A stretch of DNA of 36,763 nucleotides from a virus. The stretch spans positions 1-36,763 of the IMG/VR virus record IMGVR_UViG_3300001242_000009; one strand, written 5' to 3'. Positions 4,374 to 36,763 of this stretch are shown here, piece after piece. The notes under the pieces are model-generated. The model was not told the origin of the DNA. It was given only the letters and a program-made list of their open reading frames with translations, and searched no databases. The translations under genes were made by a program, and so were the position numbers. The first letter of the stretch is position 1. Each line of letters begins with the position of its first letter.

Positions 4374-5288
4374 TCAGTATTTGCTTAAAGAATCTTTCAG
4401 CGGGATATCAAAGATTCCCCCGCCAGTACAATTAACAATTTTGTCATGAGCCTGTTTATGGTTTACATAATCCGCTGCATACTGGGCATATTGATAGAGG
4501 TTGAAGGTTATCAAGGCATCATTGCCGTTAATGTCCTTTGTCGGCGTTGCGTTTTCTTGTGGCATTGCATCAGTATCCGGGTAGTACCGGTCACGATAAA
4601 AGCTGTAATCATACCCGGCAAGTAACAGTTTTCTTACTCCAAAAATATCCAGTGCAACGGTAATCAGGCAGTTGCCAACACACCCGCCAAAATTAATGAC
4701 ATCAATAATGCCGGTATGTTTGATAATAGCCAGATGGCTTTTGAACCGCTCGGCTGATACAAAGTAATATACTTTCTTCCCGCCCCGTTTCACAAATTCA
4801 CTTACGTATTCATGATTTGCTCCGACATGCGCTATCAGTATAGTGTTTTCGTTGACCACATCCGGTATATGCTGAGCAGATATATTCACATCACAGGTGC
4901 ATACCACGTCCGGAACTATCCCTTTTTCGTCCAGCCACCGATACCCACGGTCCACTGCAATGATTTTGTACTTATCCTTGACTCGTATCAGTTCATCAAT
5001 GTTGTTCCGGAGTGAGGGTCCAAAACTCACCGCTATAGCCGTTTTTGCTTTCCACCTGCCAAGCAAATCCTTAAGGTCACCATATTCAATTTCAATATTC
5101 TTTGACGCATTAACAAGCTGTTTTGGCAGTATCGCCTTGATAGTATCCAGGCTGTGTTTGTCGGCTACCAGTTTTTGTATGGTCCTCTGATACTGCCGGG
5201 GATATGACAGCCGTAAGGTTACATCATTCTGCAACCTGGTTATCTGCCTGTCATAGTATGTTTGCATCTGGTCAAGCGTCATTCGCAT
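4374..5288 (-). CDS. DUF115 / MptE- and Maf-like protein (possible glycosyltransferase) in the tail module
   Basis: 304 residues from ATG 5288, whose A overlaps the TAA of the upstream gene (TAATG). Residues 1-65 are helical and charged. The core has DUF115 hallmarks: AVSFGPSLRNNIDEL (86-100), IIAVDRGYRWL (109-119) and IVPDVVCTCDVN (124-135). The family includes the archaeal pterin kinase MptE and bacterial Maf proteins, which transfer pseudaminic or legionaminic acid to flagellin in the cytoplasm. The phage copy lies among connector and tail tube genes, so it may modify a virion protein. A pterin-related or purely structural role cannot be excluded. Family call is fairly sure; function is inference. 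Confidence 0.8.
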   Translation of the reverse strand: MRMTLDQMQTYYDRQITRLQNDVTLRLSYPRQYQRTIQKLVADKHSLDTIKAILPKQLVNASKNIEIEYGDLKDLLGRWKAKTAIAVSFGPSLRNNIDELIRVKDKYKIIAVDRGYRWLDEKGIVPDVVCTCDVNISAQHIPDVVNENTILIAHVGANHEYVSEFVKRGGKKVYYFVSAERFKSHLAIIKHTGIIDVINFGGCVGNCLITVALDIFGVRKLLLAGYDYSFYRDRYYPDTDAMPQENATPTKDINGNDALITFNLYQYAQYAADYVNHKQAHDKIVNCTGGGIFDIPLKDSLSKY

Positions 5289-9269: not shown

Positions 9270-10637
9270 CTACTGTGTGATTGCTGTGTTCTTTGCTCCG
9301 ATAGCCACAACAAAACTATCTCTGCTATTAGCCGGGATGCCTGCCTTGTTTCTGATAATTGCTCTGATACCAACCTGTGCAGATGTCCAATAGACTTCAT
9401 CAGACCGGGCAATATCCATGCCGCCGTATTCGTAGTATCTGTACCTTTTCAGGTTGCCAAATGCTACAAATACATCAGTACCGGTGCTGTGGTCAGTGGT
9501 GCTGTTCAGTGTCCTCGGCAGATTGTTAACTGAAATGATTCTCTTTCCAGTTGCCTTATGCTTCCATCCGTTGTTTTCCAGTACAAGGTTTTTCGGGTTT
9601 CCGTTAACATCCTTCACGGACGCCAGCAGCATGATTTCCCTTTCGTCCATCATGAATACACCCATTGCCCTTGTTTCCGGTGCTGCCTGCAAGTACATAT
9701 TTGTCAGGTCAGCGTCAGCGGTTGCGCCGTTGGCATCAATAATGTTGTAGGCAACAACACCGGTATGAAACCTGATACCGTCAAACGGATCTCCATCAAC
9801 ATCCACGCTGTAAGAACATACAAGCGGTTCAATCAGCCTGATTTTTGCATCCTTCATAAATTCCATAAGCTCAGAAATCAGGTTATACTCTGACCCTTCA
9901 AACAAATACTTGGAAACAGGGATAATCATGCCGGCTTCACGGTACAAAAGTTCCTGCTGTGCTGTGGTCAGCGTGTCAGTACCAAACGCTGTTTCCTGAT
10001 TAGCACGGTATGCAAATTCTAGAGGTCCGGTAATGGAGTTAATAAGAGTCTTGTCATCCCCAGGCCTGATTGTCATTTCATTAATCAGTTCAGAGTTAGC
10101 AAGTACTTTCTTGTCGATTTCCATATCGAACTCAGGACGGAGAAGATACCCGCCGTCAGTGTTGCTATCACCGCGCATACTGGCTTTAATTCCATACTTC
10201 TGTTCAGCAACCTTGTCATTTTTCTCTCTCTGGTCATTCAGAAAACGCTTATCATCTTCTGACAACTCTTTCTTTGTTCTGGTCCGAATAACATCAGCCG
10301 CATCCTTCATCCAGTAATGCTCTGACTCTTTTACGTTGCTGATAACGATATCGCCAGATTTCTTGAATTTCTCAAGCAGGCTCTTTTCATCCATGCTTTC
10401 CAGCATCTGTTCAGCCAGCTTTTTTGCCTGCTCTTCCAGTGCCTTTTTCTGCGCTTCTTCCTGTTCGCCTTTTTTCTGCTGTACTTCGATTTCATACGCT
10501 TTCTGTGCAAGTGCGCCCTGTTTAATAATGTCTTCTGACTTAGTATCCGGATATGCTTCCAGAATACCGGCTGTCACTTCGTCGCCTTTCTTTCCTGCTC
10601 TCAAAAGCTCAAGTGCTTTTTTGTAGATTTCGTTCAT
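9270..10637 (-). CDS. Major capsid protein, HK97 fold with N-terminal delta domain
   Basis: 455 residues from ATG 10637, overlapping the protease stop by ATGA. Residues about 1-150 are highly charged and helical, the expected scaffolding (delta) region removed by the prohead protease. From about 155 (GDSNTDGGYLLRPEFDMEID) the HK97 capsid pattern starts: the N-arm, then TTAQQELLYREAGMIIPVSK, and an A-domain-like end with EVYWTSAQVGIRAIIRNKAG. The order protease-capsid with overlapping codons is standard. No isopeptide cross-link residues can be assigned by eye. Call is firm. Confidence 0.93.
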   Translation of the reverse strand: MNEIYKKALELLRAGKKGDEVTAGILEAYPDTKSEDIIKQGALAQKAYEIEVQQKKGEQEEAQKKALEEQAKKLAEQMLESMDEKSLLEKFKKSGDIVISNVKESEHYWMKDAADVIRTRTKKELSEDDKRFLNDQREKNDKVAEQKYGIKASMRGDSNTDGGYLLRPEFDMEIDKKVLANSELINEMTIRPGDDKTLINSITGPLEFAYRANQETAFGTDTLTTAQQELLYREAGMIIPVSKYLFEGSEYNLISELMEFMKDAKIRLIEPLVCSYSVDVDGDPFDGIRFHTGVVAYNIIDANGATADADLTNMYLQAAPETRAMGVFMMDEREIMLLASVKDVNGNPKNLVLENNGWKHKATGKRIISVNNLPRTLNSTTDHSTGTDVFVAFGNLKRYRYYEYGGMDIARSDEVYWTSAQVGIRAIIRNKAGIPANSRDSFVVAIGAKNTAITQ

Positions 10638-11362
10638 TGTTTGAACACTCCTTTACATATTTGTATTTTTTCTTGTTTCTGCTCCTCCAGGCTCTTTTCT
10701 TCCGATACTTTTCCACTGTTCGGCACTTCGCCTACTTCATGGAATTTTTCACCGAGACTGAAAGATTTCATCGTGAACGTAGCTTTGGGGTTGCATGGAA
10801 TCGTCACTATTGACCCTTCCAGCAAAATAACTTTCAGGATGACATAGTTCCCCTGTTCATCCCGTTGATGGTCATATACAAAGATACCGCCCATACTGAG
10901 CGTGTTAAGAGCACCGGCTTTGATTAAGTTGACTTCGTGCCGGGATTCTTCATCGATAATGATGTAACCCTTTACCCACAGACCGACAGAATCAACCTTG
11001 AATTCTGTCCATGCCCCAAGCTGACATTCAGTAATAGGCCAATGGTTTTTTAGTAGCGGAAACATTCCCCTGCTTGATATATCAGTTAGCGTGTCGTTAA
11101 ATGCGTTCTCATGCACAACATCTGATGCCCGGTCCGAATTCTTGAATGTTGATAGATAGCCTTCAATCCAAATACGCTGCAGCCCGTCATTATCTTCCAT
11201 TCCCTTATACGACAGTGTGTTGAACTCCTGAACCACGGCTATCTTTTTCTGGTTGTACGCATCCATAAGATTGTTTTTCTGAATGTAATCGCCTGCTAAA
11301 TCCTTGATGTGTACGCTCATCTGCTCCAGAATCTTATTGTCTTGTATCGGTTTGTTTGGCAT
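10634..11362 (-). CDS. Prohead maturation protease (HK97 gp4 / S78 family)
   Basis: 242 residues from ATG 11362 (MPNKPIQDNKI), with AAAGGA 9 bases upstream. A longer frame would run through a terminator stem and was rejected. The serine protease signature is visible: His107 in LLKNHWPITECQLG, Ser156 in ALNTLSMGG, and EGSIVTIPCNP (182-192), the conserved acidic motif. It cleaves the capsid delta domain during head maturation. The last 40 residues are a Glu/Lys helix, common in these proteins. The stop overlaps the capsid start (ATGA). A two-hairpin RNA element lies just upstream. Confidence 0.92.
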   Translation of the reverse strand: MPNKPIQDNKILEQMSVHIKDLAGDYIQKNNLMDAYNQKKIAVVQEFNTLSYKGMEDNDGLQRIWIEGYLSTFKNSDRASDVVHENAFNDTLTDISSRGMFPLLKNHWPITECQLGAWTEFKVDSVGLWVKGYIIIDEESRHEVNLIKAGALNTLSMGGIFVYDHQRDEQGNYVILKVILLEGSIVTIPCNPKATFTMKSFSLGEKFHEVGEVPNSGKVSEEKSLEEQKQEKIQICKGVFKQ

Positions 11363-11386
11363 TATCCATATCCTTTCGGTTAAAAT

Positions 11387-11461
11387 AAAAAAGGCGACAT
11401 CCAAACCGTTACCAGTTAGAAAGTCGCCTCTATGCTTATGCTTATAGTCAGCGGTTATTTA
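11387..11461 (-). ncRNA. Two-hairpin structured RNA/terminator element, copy 1 (before the protease gene)
   Basis: On the minus strand the order is conserved AACCGCTGAC, a small hairpin (11430-11447; CUAU-AA-GC-AUAA-GC-AUAG), one A, then a terminator hairpin (GGCGAC/GTCGCC, 11393-11428) followed by TTTTTT. Two further copies are at 15220-15290 and 34450-34520. Stem bases differ among copies in a compensatory way, supporting a real RNA fold. It lies between the 55-residue gene and the protease ribosome site, so it may reduce or regulate transcription into the protease-capsid genes. Confidence 0.8.
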
Positions 11462-11462
11462 A

Positions 11463-11630
11463 TTATTTTTCTGTTTCCAAGTACTCCATCTGCTTGTGTA
11501 CTATTTTCCCGTTTTGGACCTTTACCTGCAGGTTAATGGTATAAAACTGCATTCCAAGTAAGTTACCTATCTTCCCGGCTTCCTGGTATGCTATGCTTTT
11601 CTGTTCGCTCAGTGCTTCAGTAAGGTTCAT
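11463..11630 (-). CDS. Small protein between portal and protease, unknown
   Basis: 55 residues from ATG 11630 (MNLTEALSEQKSIAYQEAGK) to TAA 11463, with AAAGGAG 6 bases upstream. It fills the gap between the portal-MuF gene and the RNA element. The sequence suggests a helix followed by two or three strands (FYTINLQVKV, GKIVHKQMEY). No motif is recognised. The strong ribosome site and the tight fit between neighbours support a real gene. Confidence 0.75.
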   Translation of the reverse strand: MNLTEALSEQKSIAYQEAGKIGNLLGMQFYTINLQVKVQNGKIVHKQMEYLETEK

Positions 11631-13772: not shown

Positions 13773-15206
13773 CTATGCAGCATCATCGTCAAACTCATCG
13801 TCAATATCTTCCACGTATGCTATCAGCTTATTAATTTCTCTGCGAACTTTCTTGTTGCTCCATACCGCATACCTGAGAGCATCGGCAACGTCATTGTATT
13901 CATCCACCAGCTTTTCAGCGTTATATCCACCATCAGGCATTTCCTTGTACATGAAGTTATTGCAATCGTTGATTAGCTCTTTATGGCTGTATTTCAGTTT
14001 CATTCGTTCGGAATACAGCAGCCGGTTCACAAACTGGAATCCGGCAAGCACCTTAGAAGTTACTTGTTCTACACCCTCATTTTTTGTATATTCCGATTTC
14101 ATCCAGCTACGGGCCGGGATACCGACATCTTTCAGCGTCTTGATTGATTCCGGTCGTTCGTGGGACGTATACCACATATCACACTTATACTGCTTTTGCA
14201 GCTCCCTGATAATTGAAACCATTGTCCTTTTTTCTTTGTTCTCGGTCATGAACATCAGGCCGCTTTCGCCAATAGCCTCCAATACATGCACCTGCCAATC
14301 ATACGTTACGCCGACAACCACAATACCGGCTCTGTGAGTATGCCCGCTGTCAAACCCTCCGAATACAAACCGGTATGCAGTAGCGTCAAACTCTGTTACA
14401 AGATTGCTATCAGTGAACCCGGATAACACCCGTCCTGCATAGTTAGTCCACTCTGCCAGGAAGTTCCGTGCAAAATCTTCCGGCGGCATTATCTTTTCAA
14501 GGGCCTGAACCCGTTCTAAAAACCCCTTAATCATCGTTTGTTCTTTGAACGTCCAGTGGTAGTACACCCATGACCGCCGTGTATCGCATCTTTCATCATC
14601 AACCGGTTCTCTCGTGATACCGTCAATACACACTTTGTATATCTGGTGATATACCCAGTTGTTACCTTTCGGAGTAGTGGTCATAATGGCCCAACCGTCA
14701 TTATCCATTAGAGCCGCCTGCACATTATCAAACCATACAGATTGTTTCCAACGGGCCACCTCAGTACACAACGCACCGGCAACACCCTCCCCGACCAGTA
14801 GGTCAGGACGTTCGGAAGTTTTGAATTCGATTAATACATCCCAGTGCAGTAACCATAACTTTTTATTCGATGCGTCATAGGTGAAATCAACTCCACGGCG
14901 CATTCCCATCTTGAGCAGAATTTCGATGATATAACGTTTCAGAATATCTGCGTGCTTGTATGTCAGCCCGATTGCCCAGTAATGCAGCTTTGGGATATCA
15001 TCACGCCAGCTGTGGATTTCCCGGCCCTTTCCAGAGTCCAGGTCTTTGAATATATTTTTTACTGCTTTACGGGCAGCAACATAATCTTTGCCGCCACGCC
15101 TGGTTGCATTGATAAGAATATTGGGGCAGGTTTCCCGGTACACACGTTCCTGTTTATCGTGCCCGCCCATTTTCTTTTTAAACTCAACAGTAACCAGTTT
15201 TCCCAT
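13773..15206 (-). CDS. terL: Terminase large subunit
   Basis: 477 residues from ATG 15206 (MGKLVTVEFKKKMGG) with GGAGAAAAAT upstream; an upstream in-frame start would lie in a terminator stem. The ATPase domain has an unusual Walker A, ATRRGGKDY (34-42), where Asp41 replaces the expected Ser/Thr. A Walker B-like segment is AGALCTEVARW (143-153), and TTTPKG (176-181) is motif III. The nuclease domain shows FGGFDSG (282-288, Asp286) and NDVADALRYAVWS near the C-terminus. It packages DNA into the prohead with TerS. An RNA element lies directly upstream. The C-terminal acidic tail (DDEFDDDAA) may contact the portal. Confidence 0.93.
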   Translation of the reverse strand: MGKLVTVEFKKKMGGHDKQERVYRETCPNILINATRRGGKDYVAARKAVKNIFKDLDSGKGREIHSWRDDIPKLHYWAIGLTYKHADILKRYIIEILLKMGMRRGVDFTYDASNKKLWLLHWDVLIEFKTSERPDLLVGEGVAGALCTEVARWKQSVWFDNVQAALMDNDGWAIMTTTPKGNNWVYHQIYKVCIDGITREPVDDERCDTRRSWVYYHWTFKEQTMIKGFLERVQALEKIMPPEDFARNFLAEWTNYAGRVLSGFTDSNLVTEFDATAYRFVFGGFDSGHTHRAGIVVVGVTYDWQVHVLEAIGESGLMFMTENKEKRTMVSIIRELQKQYKCDMWYTSHERPESIKTLKDVGIPARSWMKSEYTKNEGVEQVTSKVLAGFQFVNRLLYSERMKLKYSHKELINDCNNFMYKEMPDGGYNAEKLVDEYNDVADALRYAVWSNKKVRREINKLIAYVEDIDDEFDDDAA

Positions 15207-15219
15207 ATTTTTCTCCAAT

Positions 15220-15290
15220 AAAAAAGGCACATACCCGGAGTTACCCGGCAATATGTGCCTCTGTGCGTTTCGCTAACAGTCAGCGGTTAT
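15220..15290 (-). ncRNA. Two-hairpin structured RNA/terminator element, copy 2 (before terL)
   Basis: Read on the minus strand: AACCGCTGAC, small hairpin CUGU-UA-GCG-AAA-CGC-ACAG (15261-15279), one A, then the terminator stem GGCACATA/TATGTGCC (15226-15259) and a T run. An inner CCGG/CCGG stem is possible inside the terminator loop. It directly follows the stop of the 81-residue gene and precedes the terL ribosome site. Confidence 0.8.
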
Positions 15291-15536
15291 TTAAGATTGT
15301 GGTTGTTTTTCAGGATACTGCTGTTCAAATCCTTTTGCATCTATTCCCCTGCTCATATAAGTTACAAAGCACTCATGGTGATAAAGATCGCCATGATACT
15401 CAACAAAAAGTCCAGTAATAGCAGCATTGCAAGCATGGCATATTCCTTTATTATTTGACCTACTATCCAAGACCACACCATATCCTGTATACTCTACGTT
15501 ATTCATAATCGCCTTATTGTTATATCCCTGTATCAT
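15291..15536 (-). CDS. Small zinc-binding-like protein between TerS and TerL
   Basis: 81 residues from ATG 15536, preceded by GGGGTGAGGAG. It carries CHACNAAITG (about 33-42) and YHHECF (about 52-57), a Cys/His arrangement like half a LIM or treble-clef zinc site. The C-terminus is Gln/Pro/Lys-rich. It sits between the 80-residue gene and the RNA element before terL. No family is recognised; a DNA- or RNA-binding helper is possible. Confidence 0.7.
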   Translation of the reverse strand: MIQGYNNKAIMNNVEYTGYGVVLDSRSNNKGICHACNAAITGLFVEYHGDLYHHECFVTYMSRGIDAKGFEQQYPEKQPQS

Positions 15537-29895: not shown

Positions 29896-29948
29896 ATAAG
29901 TATGAGGGCAAGAGAAAAGCCCAAAATAAAAAAACGGAGGTAAGGGAA

Positions 29949-33156: not shown

Positions 33157-34428
33157 CTACTCCGTATACCATATTGTTACCCATCCACGATTATAAGATG
33201 TGGAATCGTAATATGTGCTATCAAACTCACCTGACGCTTTTCTGCGCAACCTAATACTTCCATCCGCTATCCAATATGTTCCTTGTACATCATATGACCC
33301 ATCTGATTCCATCGGGTAATCTAATGGACGCGAATATACAGATGCTCCTGTATCAGCATATATATGTACATATACAGTTCTTATAACATCACGATTAATG
33401 CCTGTTGTTACGTCCACAAACGCAGTACTGTCCATATCCCAGTCACCAATTTCTATTATCTTGCATTTTATCGCAACACCATTTCCCCCTGCATCAATCC
33501 CACCATTAGCCGTAACTATTCCAGAAAAGCTTGCTGTAGTTCCGGTTAATGACCCTCCCACCACCAAGCTATCATCCGTCTTGAGTACGTTGGCTGAGTC
33601 ACGGTATAGGTTAGTGTCTCTTGCAGCACTCCCTGAACCAAAGTCTATACCCGCCTTACCAGCACCACCAATATTTGTTTGAATTGATACATCAGAAGCT
33701 GCACCCCCAGCGTTCAGAATAAACCCCGTGGTAGAATATATATAACTACTTGTCTTAATCTGCCCTGCAGTTGCCCCCGTTGCTGTGCCGAGGTTAAGGC
33801 CATAATGGATGGTTGTGCCAAGTGAAGTATCTATAGTTAGTGCCCCTGTGCCGCCCATGGTTAGTTTTAAGGGTTTTAATGTGCCACCATCAAAAGCCCT
33901 ACTCCCAAACTCTATATGTGTACCTAAAATGCCTACCCTGGCAGCCCCCACTGGAGGAGTTCCCGCTTTAACATCTGTATCGCAAACATCAAGCCAAGCA
34001 AATCCATTTCCTGATATCTCTGGCGGACTTCCGTTAGGGCAAATATCTAGTACGCCTACATCTGCTTGGTTTGCTCTTATTACAGCTACAGGAAACGAAG
34101 TAACCCCTGACCTCTGAGACAATTGATATCCATTTATTCCTGATTGTTTGTCAATTATCAAATCTTCATTTGTAGTCAGCCCAGTTAGCGTTCCAACGCT
34201 GGTTATGTTCGGCTGCGCTGCTGTTGCGAGCGTGCCGGTTATGTTGCCGGAGAAATAACCGTGCCTCCATTTATATGTATTACTACCGATATCGTATGCA
34301 CTACCTGCATATTCCTTCGTCGTGCCGTTAATCGGTAATATGTGATTCTCACGTTCCTCTTTCCAGTCGTTCAAACTTGCTGCCGGTAGCACATCACCAT
34401 CACTAAAATTATTTGGAAATATTGGCAT
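33157..34428 (-). CDS. Tail fibre / receptor-binding protein
   Basis: 423 residues from ATG 34428, with AAAGGGGTG 6 bases upstream; an upstream GTG lies in the ribosome site. Gly/Thr/Ser/Ala-rich repeats (GNITGTLATAAQPNITSVGT, TGTTASFSGIVTANGGID) are typical of fibrous trimeric beta structures of tail fibres. The C-terminal 110 residues are more compact (VDVTTGINRDVIRTVYVHIY, and SYNRGWVTIWYTE) and could be the receptor-binding tip. It is preceded by RNA element copy 3. Confidence 0.8.
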   Translation of the reverse strand: MPIFPNNFSDGDVLPAASLNDWKEERENHILPINGTTKEYAGSAYDIGSNTYKWRHGYFSGNITGTLATAAQPNITSVGTLTGLTTNEDLIIDKQSGINGYQLSQRSGVTSFPVAVIRANQADVGVLDICPNGSPPEISGNGFAWLDVCDTDVKAGTPPVGAARVGILGTHIEFGSRAFDGGTLKPLKLTMGGTGALTIDTSLGTTIHYGLNLGTATGATAGQIKTSSYIYSTTGFILNAGGAASDVSIQTNIGGAGKAGIDFGSGSAARDTNLYRDSANVLKTDDSLVVGGSLTGTTASFSGIVTANGGIDAGGNGVAIKCKIIEIGDWDMDSTAFVDVTTGINRDVIRTVYVHIYADTGASVYSRPLDYPMESDGSYDVQGTYWIADGSIRLRRKASGEFDSTYYDSTSYNRGWVTIWYTE

Positions 34429-34449
34429 ATTAATCACCCCTTTATAAAA

Positions 34450-34520
34450 TAAAAAAAACGCATCGCCGGATTTATCCCGAGATATGCGCCTCTGTGTATT
34501 TACTAACAGTCAGCGATATA
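34450..34520 (-). ncRNA. Two-hairpin structured RNA/terminator element, copy 3 (before the tail fibre gene)
   Basis: Minus strand order: TCGCTGAC, small hairpin CUGU-UA-GUA-AA-UAC-ACAG (34492-34509), one A, then stem GCGCAT/ATGCGT (to 34458) and a run of eight T. It follows the stop of the 415-residue tail protein and precedes the fibre gene. Confidence 0.8.
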
Positions 34521-36540: not shown

Positions 36541-36763
36541 AATACTCCAGCCTCCTTGAGTGCCAGTGAATCAACAATTGCACGGGCAAACACCTGATTA
36601 TTAACAATAAGGTTAATCTGTACTGTTTTGGCTCCTGTAGCCATATTGTTCCCGCCATGAGGGATAATATTGATGGTCTCTGCTTGTCCGTACTCAGATA
36701 CAATACCCTGCAAGCCGTGCTTATTAACTATTGCAGTCGGCGTGTTGGTCTTAATGCTCCCGC
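36537..36763 (-). CDS. Tail tape measure protein, C-terminal end (residues 900-954 up to 36704; repeat beyond)
   Basis: This is the continuation of the gene starting at 2698. Bases 36704-36763 duplicate 1-60; from 36704 down to the TGA at 36537-36539 come the last 55 residues, including KTVQINLIVNNQVFARAIVD and the end LALKEAGVL. Its stop overlaps the start of the next gene as ATGA. The perfect continuity of frame is the evidence for circular closure. Confidence 0.88.
   Translation of the reverse strand, partial: GSIKTNTPTAIVNKHGLQGIVSEYGQAETINIIPHGGNNMATGAKTVQINLIVNNQVFARAIVDSLALKEAGVL
36704..36763. repeat. Right copy of the 60-bp terminal direct repeat
   Basis: Identical to bases 1-60. 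Removing one copy gives a 36,703-bp circle. Confidence 0.95.

Follow-up and report, generated by a model that had tools for sequence, protein, structure and literature searches.

Three hairpin–terminator elements at late gene boundaries

The window analyzed here is the complete 36,763-nt stretch of the virus record IMGVR_UViG_3300001242_000009. It contains three minus-strand elements, which we named e1, e2, and e3, each consisting of a small hairpin followed by an intrinsic terminator with a T run, and all three have the core GCUGA-[mini-hairpin]-AGGC in common. A preliminary description of this DNA had placed three such copies at the terL, protease–capsid, and tail fibre boundaries. The copies are indeed present and were ranked first by two covariance models that hold no window sequence (see below), and the genes downstream of e2, e1, and e3 bear out these locations. 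The elements are as follows:

11426..11452 (-): e1 recognition hairpin, GCTGA-CTAT(AA)GC-ATAA-GCATAG-AGGC; top covariance-model match; fold -4.8 kcal/mol with the lower stem GCU/GGC
11385..11431 (-): e1 intrinsic terminator hairpin and T run; -21.6 kcal/mol; directly 5' of the protease ribosome-binding site
15257..15284 (-): e2 recognition hairpin, GCTGA-CTGT(TA)GCG-AAA-CGCACAG-AGGC; found with the covariance models; fold -7.8 kcal/mol
15218..15262 (-): e2 intrinsic terminator and T run; -22.4 kcal/mol; directly 5' of the terL ribosome-binding site
34488..34514 (-): e3 recognition hairpin, GCTGA-CTGT(TA)GTAAATACACAG-AGGC; found with the covariance models; fold -4.6 kcal/mol
34449..34493 (-): e3 intrinsic terminator and T run; -13.4 kcal/mol; upstream of the fibre-like gene

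The sequence CGCTGACT starts at 11453, 15285, and 34515 and has no other match in the window. By itself, it is weak evidence, as three matches compare with 0.48 expected and 2 of 100 shuffles also reached three. With a G+C-rich hairpin and a subsequent U run, e1, e2, and e3 all have the structure of intrinsic (Rho-independent) terminators. The small hairpin of the preliminary description is real, but its lower stem had been overlooked: the hairpin is longer than first described, as GCU pairs with GGC across a GA/A internal loop, and the conserved GCU of the core is therefore paired sequence. In the folds of e1–e3, the GGC strand of this lower stem is also the base of the terminator 5' arm. As this strand is common to both structures, the hairpin and the terminator are mutually exclusive, which is the arrangement of an antiterminator-type hairpin. 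The two-base bulge that had been described as conserved occurs in the window copies but is a peculiarity of the window phage, being absent from nearly all relatives.

No sigma-70 promoters were listed just upstream of e1–e3 on the minus strand. In agreement with the view that the element has no named family, no Rfam family reached its gathering score in the window or at the elements of relatives. Near-matches to trpB and rliH at e3 were far under the gathering scores and were rejected.

Relatives in phages and bacteria and their association with DUF2292

A pattern that included the terminator yielded two convincing phage relatives (L006 and L007). The pattern matches in L001, L005, and L008 were judged to be chance because of their coding context or the lack of a fitting terminator. 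With a broader pattern, we found the element in dozens of phage contigs, mainly metagenomic, and in about fifty Bacillaceae chromosomes. Many phages carry it at the boundaries of the head module, and among bacteria, it is found in Bacillota as well as in Armatimonadota and Chloroflexota. Of 136 copies in relatives, 114 have a terminator whose 5' arm opens with AGGC, and the median fold energy is -21.8 kcal/mol for the terminator versus -5.2 for the hairpin.

In most relatives, a small open reading frame (ORF) stops 2–36 nt before GCTGA; its stop codon in many Bacillaceae is the TGA within GCTGA. Over its length, the small ORF shows the conservation of a protein family, and the ORFs of Bacillaceae and Armatimonadota are DUF2292 (PF10055; 2e-19 and 4e-17). 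An annotated record has the order 'YezD family protein', element, phosphoadenylyl-sulfate reductase.

We also approached the association from the protein side by choosing DUF2292 genes in 300 Bacilli genomes by Pfam alone and reading 57 downstream regions. Using a structural filter that was derived from earlier element matches, the element (GCYRA-hairpin-ARGC) was found at most 150 nt past the DUF2292 stop in 35 of these 57 regions, compared with 0.13 in shuffles. In the control, it followed only 23 of 2075 other long ORFs (1.1%). The copies behind the Pfam-picked genes include forms that had not been asked for, such as GCCGA-TTAG-ACGA-CTAA-AGGC and GCCGA-TCGG-ACCA-CCGA-AGGC. At the level of whole genomes, DUF2292 was present in 52 of 54 Bacilli genomes with a paired copy versus 68 of the 246 others. 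After dropping coding matches (one with GCGG/CCGC, within a coding sequence of Paenibacillus in L291, and another in L293), it was present in 50 of 51 element-bearing genomes versus 70 of 249, these counts being uncorrected for phylogeny. The earlier supposition that a phage or host protein recognizes the element thus receives strong circumstantial support.

Bacilli copies distant from DUF2292 precede cysH and genes for a sulfate-binding protein, alkanesulfonate monooxygenase (ssuD), a CysP-type sulfate permease, and a sulfonate-type transporter. Several of these copies immediately follow a promoter-like sequence and have no DUF2292 gene next to them, and a leader peptide is therefore unnecessary. 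The Bacillus protein matches the NCBI model 'sulfur starvation response protein OscA' (NF033785) below its cutoff. The title of a study cited in PMC3596284 (Viti 2009) describes oscA of Pseudomonas corrugata as taking part in the response to sulphur starvation.

In phages, the neighbors of the cassette are genes for head morphogenesis, terminase, portal, and the head maturation protease. Phage G019 has four copies, all of them preceded by promoter-like sequences, together with a single DUF2292-like gene; phage G001 has two copies, before genes that are protease-like and fibre-like by eye. The window, in which three copies accompany one candidate regulator, has a layout in keeping with these multi-copy phages. 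A tblastn search with DUF2292 gave no significant matches in cultured phages, and the phage members seen therefore come from metagenomes.

Three further loci showed unusual arrangements. In Sporosarcina cysH leaders (L126 and L118), a second tandem copy of the hairpin lies upstream of the main element, ending in AAGC and without its own terminator (GCTGA-CCGG-ATAA-CCGG-AAGC in L126), hinting at cooperative binding. At L286 (G005:C60), an element with a terminator lies upstream of a DUF2292 gene, so that the regulator may itself be attenuated there. In a metagenome-assembled genome of the Paenibacillaceae (L120:3202, +), an element-like hairpin and a terminator precede a gene that is nitrogenase-like by eye and possibly a sulfur-salvage relative.

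Covariation of the small hairpin

The preliminary description had pointed to paired changes in the stem. The three window copies by themselves are thin evidence for covariation, and it is the relatives that supply it. We searched the 300 Bacilli genomes with a pattern that left the outer pairs of the upper stem free and obtained 101 places, at 85 of which the upper stem was fully paired. Counting distinct sequences, 38 of 45 were fully paired without the pattern having demanded it, and shuffles gave a mean of 16.5 and a maximum of 25. Two alignments were also evaluated, the collection of which demanded at least three pairs; this demand, which was not part of the free-pair test, raises the percentage paired artificially and also, to a certain extent, any measure of covariation. 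With this proviso, 100% of the cells pair in A5 (44 bacterial cores), with 60 two-sided changes versus 19.8 in shuffles, and A6 (27 cores, from Pfam-picked genes only) has 19 versus 5.2.

The covariance models R1 and R2 were built from A5 and A6, respectively, and neither holds window sequence; the alignment of R1 includes copies first found by a window-derived pattern, whereas that of R2 does not. Both models ranked e1–e3 first in the window, R1 with E values of 0.0005–0.0009 (next match 0.19) and R2 with 0.014–0.037 (next match 0.39). A first-pass genome search with R1 gave an undercount, as it missed the window's own copies. Homologues with covariation, the absence of which would have spoken against the preliminary description, do therefore exist.

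A candidate partner in the window

Directly before e1, the window contains the following ORF, placed between the portal and protease genes:

11463..11630 (-): 55-residue ORF, candidate divergent DUF2292-like partner; good ribosome-binding site AAAGGAGCGAATA-ATG; stop 10 nt before the GCTGA of e1

Its AlphaFold model shows a helix (residues 3–25) and two strands (30–39 and 42–52) at a predicted local distance difference test score (pLDDT) of 72. This predicted fold, a helix followed by a beta-hairpin, agrees with the prediction for DUF2292, with moderate confidence of both models. A profile of phage small ORFs that includes the e1 ORF (A3) matched DUF2292 with a probability of 93.8, and single phage ORFs scored weakly. 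In the window genome, the 55-residue ORF has the predicted fold and the position expected of a DUF2292 gene but no Pfam match; we describe its product as DUF2292-like rather than filing it as a member of DUF2292. The preliminary description had overlooked this candidate at 11463-11630 (-), as well as the occurrence of the element as a bacterial sulfur-gene leader and the DUF2292 family as its likely partner.

Proposed mechanism and alternative explanations

We consider it probable that each element is a protein-controlled transcription attenuator, in which DUF2292 binds the hairpin and prevents formation of the terminator, in cis and in trans. The nascent RNA would fold either into the small hairpin GCYGA-N4-loop-N4'-AGGC, with a 3-bp lower stem GCY/RGC, or into the intrinsic terminator, the 5' arm of which opens with the same AGGC. 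As the terminator is strong and the hairpin weak, termination should be the default, and a stabilizing factor should be needed; without such a factor, the much stronger terminator would win. A DUF2292-family protein (YezD/OscA-like, about 50 residues, helix and beta-hairpin) would bind the upper hairpin and its A-rich loop and keep AGGC out of the terminator, and RNA polymerase would then read through. In the window phage, the 55-residue ORF product would act on e1, which follows its gene, and in trans on e2 and e3, ahead of terL and the fibre-like gene, respectively, and late structural expression would rise once the protein has accumulated. In Bacilli, the same module seems to run a sulfur-starvation regulon.

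Several observations weigh against this mechanism. As many as 22 of the 57 DUF2292 genes have no adjacent element, no recognizable element was seen in the Pseudomonas OscA loci that were read, and the association and co-occurrence counts are uncorrected for phylogeny. The GG of the lower stem is also constrained by the terminator, and its conservation is therefore no proof of an antiterminator. Regarding the protein, the 55-residue ORF had no match in Pfam, staying below the DUF2292 (PF10055) gathering score of 22 bits, and alone it reached only a probability of 3 against DUF2292 with hhalign. A Foldseek search against the PDB was uninformative, and no solved structures resemble the model.

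The position of the element directly behind the DUF2292 stop at many loci would also suit a feedback in which DUF2292 binds the element but strengthens termination, as PyrR or TRAP do, so that expression at the phage boundaries is damped. We judge this to be unlikely, since AGGC is a strand of both the recognition hairpin and the terminator, and holding the hairpin should open the terminator. Moreover, the regulated genes are scavenging genes that are wanted in starvation, for which an activator fits better, in line with the starvation role of OscA named in the cited title (PMC3596284). A small metabolite-sensing riboswitch, or an attenuator that is bound by another host factor with DUF2292 being a co-regulated neighbor, would explain why copies away from DUF2292 precede sulfur genes. 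This, too, seems rather improbable to us, because the element, with a length of about 21 nt, 7 pairs, and a stem that varies, is small for an aptamer, because phages carry it together with a DUF2292-like gene before capsid genes and not before sulfur genes, and because of the near-complete presence of DUF2292 in the element-bearing Bacilli genomes.

We give hardly any credence to the idea that these are ordinary intra-operon terminators that passively set gene ratios and share a 5' hairpin as a duplicated remnant. All three window elements are good terminators within a single phage, as this idea would have it, but the upstream hairpin is kept by compensatory changes across phyla, tracks one protein family, and occurs in Sporosarcina in tandem copies that have no terminator of their own. 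It is similarly far-fetched that a ribosome finishing the small ORF as a leader peptide controls the folding. The stop codons within or shortly upstream of GCTGA would be well placed for such a coupling, but many copies follow promoters or unrelated genes without any small ORF, e2 and e3 themselves are preceded by unrelated ORFs, and the small ORF is maintained along its length as a protein family.

Returning to antitermination by DUF2292, we lean slightly towards the broader proposition that the family founds a class of minimal RNA-binding antiterminators of about 50 residues with their own 21-nt target, which serve a sulfur-starvation regulon in Bacilli and were adopted by phages as a late-gene switch, several phages having multi-copy phage-wide regulons. 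If true, this would provide a function and an RNA target for the widespread DUF2292/YezD/OscA protein, add an RNA regulatory family that is missing from Rfam, and show a way in which Bacilli may coordinate sulfur scavenging at the RNA level. It would also mean that phages have adapted an attenuation module of bacteria for the control of their capsid, packaging, and fibre genes.

Comparison with known systems

In the RAT/LicT-SacY systems of the BglG family, the hairpin to which the protein binds extends into the 5' arm of an intrinsic terminator. The DUF2292-associated hairpin, probably also bound by a protein, overlaps its terminator in the same way, but it differs in its motif (GCYGA-hairpin-AGGC) and in the associated protein, which has about 50 residues and belongs to a different Pfam family, and one regulator apparently serves many operons. 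Like the S-box (SAM-I) and T-box leaders, the element is a probable attenuator before sulfur assimilation genes in Bacilli, but the RNA is much smaller; in L060, Rfam detected an S-box elsewhere in the record and nothing at the element. OscA (NF033785) and YezD belong to the protein family that adjoins the element and share its sulfur-starvation context.

The put transcript of phage HK022 is reported to suppress pausing and termination in early transcription without a dedicated phage protein (PMC9378689). It is likewise a short, folded RNA from a phage with an effect on termination, but each window hairpin is fused to its own terminator, a protein family co-occurs, and there is no resemblance in layout. 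A 2010 survey mentions an unnamed premature-terminator element that, in bacilli, precedes a sulfonate transporter operon and an uncharacterized gene (PMC2965389). The premature terminator and the link to sulfonate metabolism are common to both, and the survey element may be a partial sighting of the DUF2292-associated attenuator; its main text names neither a structure nor a protein partner, a mechanism, or members in phages. In the library searched, we found no description of a DUF2292–attenuator pairing, nor an RNA target or mechanism for DUF2292/YezD/OscA, and yezD was listed as unknown. The RNA, its protein partner, and the use by phages therefore appear to be new, whereas the kind, a protein-controlled attenuator, is already known.

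Genes around the elements and further features of the window

The genes downstream of e1–e3 are the following, with labels for TerL, portal, protease, and TerS from PHROGs and those for the capsid and fibre-like genes based solely on position and the character of the sequence:

10634..11362 (-): head maturation protease gene, downstream of e1; phrog_80, 5.5e-23, for the ORF called from 11404; the start at 11362 was read from the sequence
9270-10637: presumed capsid gene, after the protease gene; labeled by position and sequence only, no PHROG match
13773..15206 (-): terminase large subunit gene (terL), downstream of e2; phrog_2, 4.4e-27
33157..34428 (-): fibre-like structural gene, downstream of e3; no PHROG match, assigned from sequence character and position

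Directly before e2 lies an 81-residue zinc-ribbon-like ORF (15291-15536, -) with a weak Pfam LIM match (E 0.008). Homology searches with TerL and the capsid in viral, genome, and phage collections gave no close relatives of the window phage. The contig begins and ends with the same 60 bp as direct repeats (1-60 and 36704-36763), which suggests a complete, circularly permuted genome. The tail module contains a 304-residue ORF (4374-5288, -) that is of the DUF115/MptE type by eye and unusual among structural genes. Four near-identical leaders, AAACGGAGGNAANGNAAATG, at 29929, 30221, 30394, and 30730 (+), stand before consecutive small ORFs and form a repeated translation-start element.
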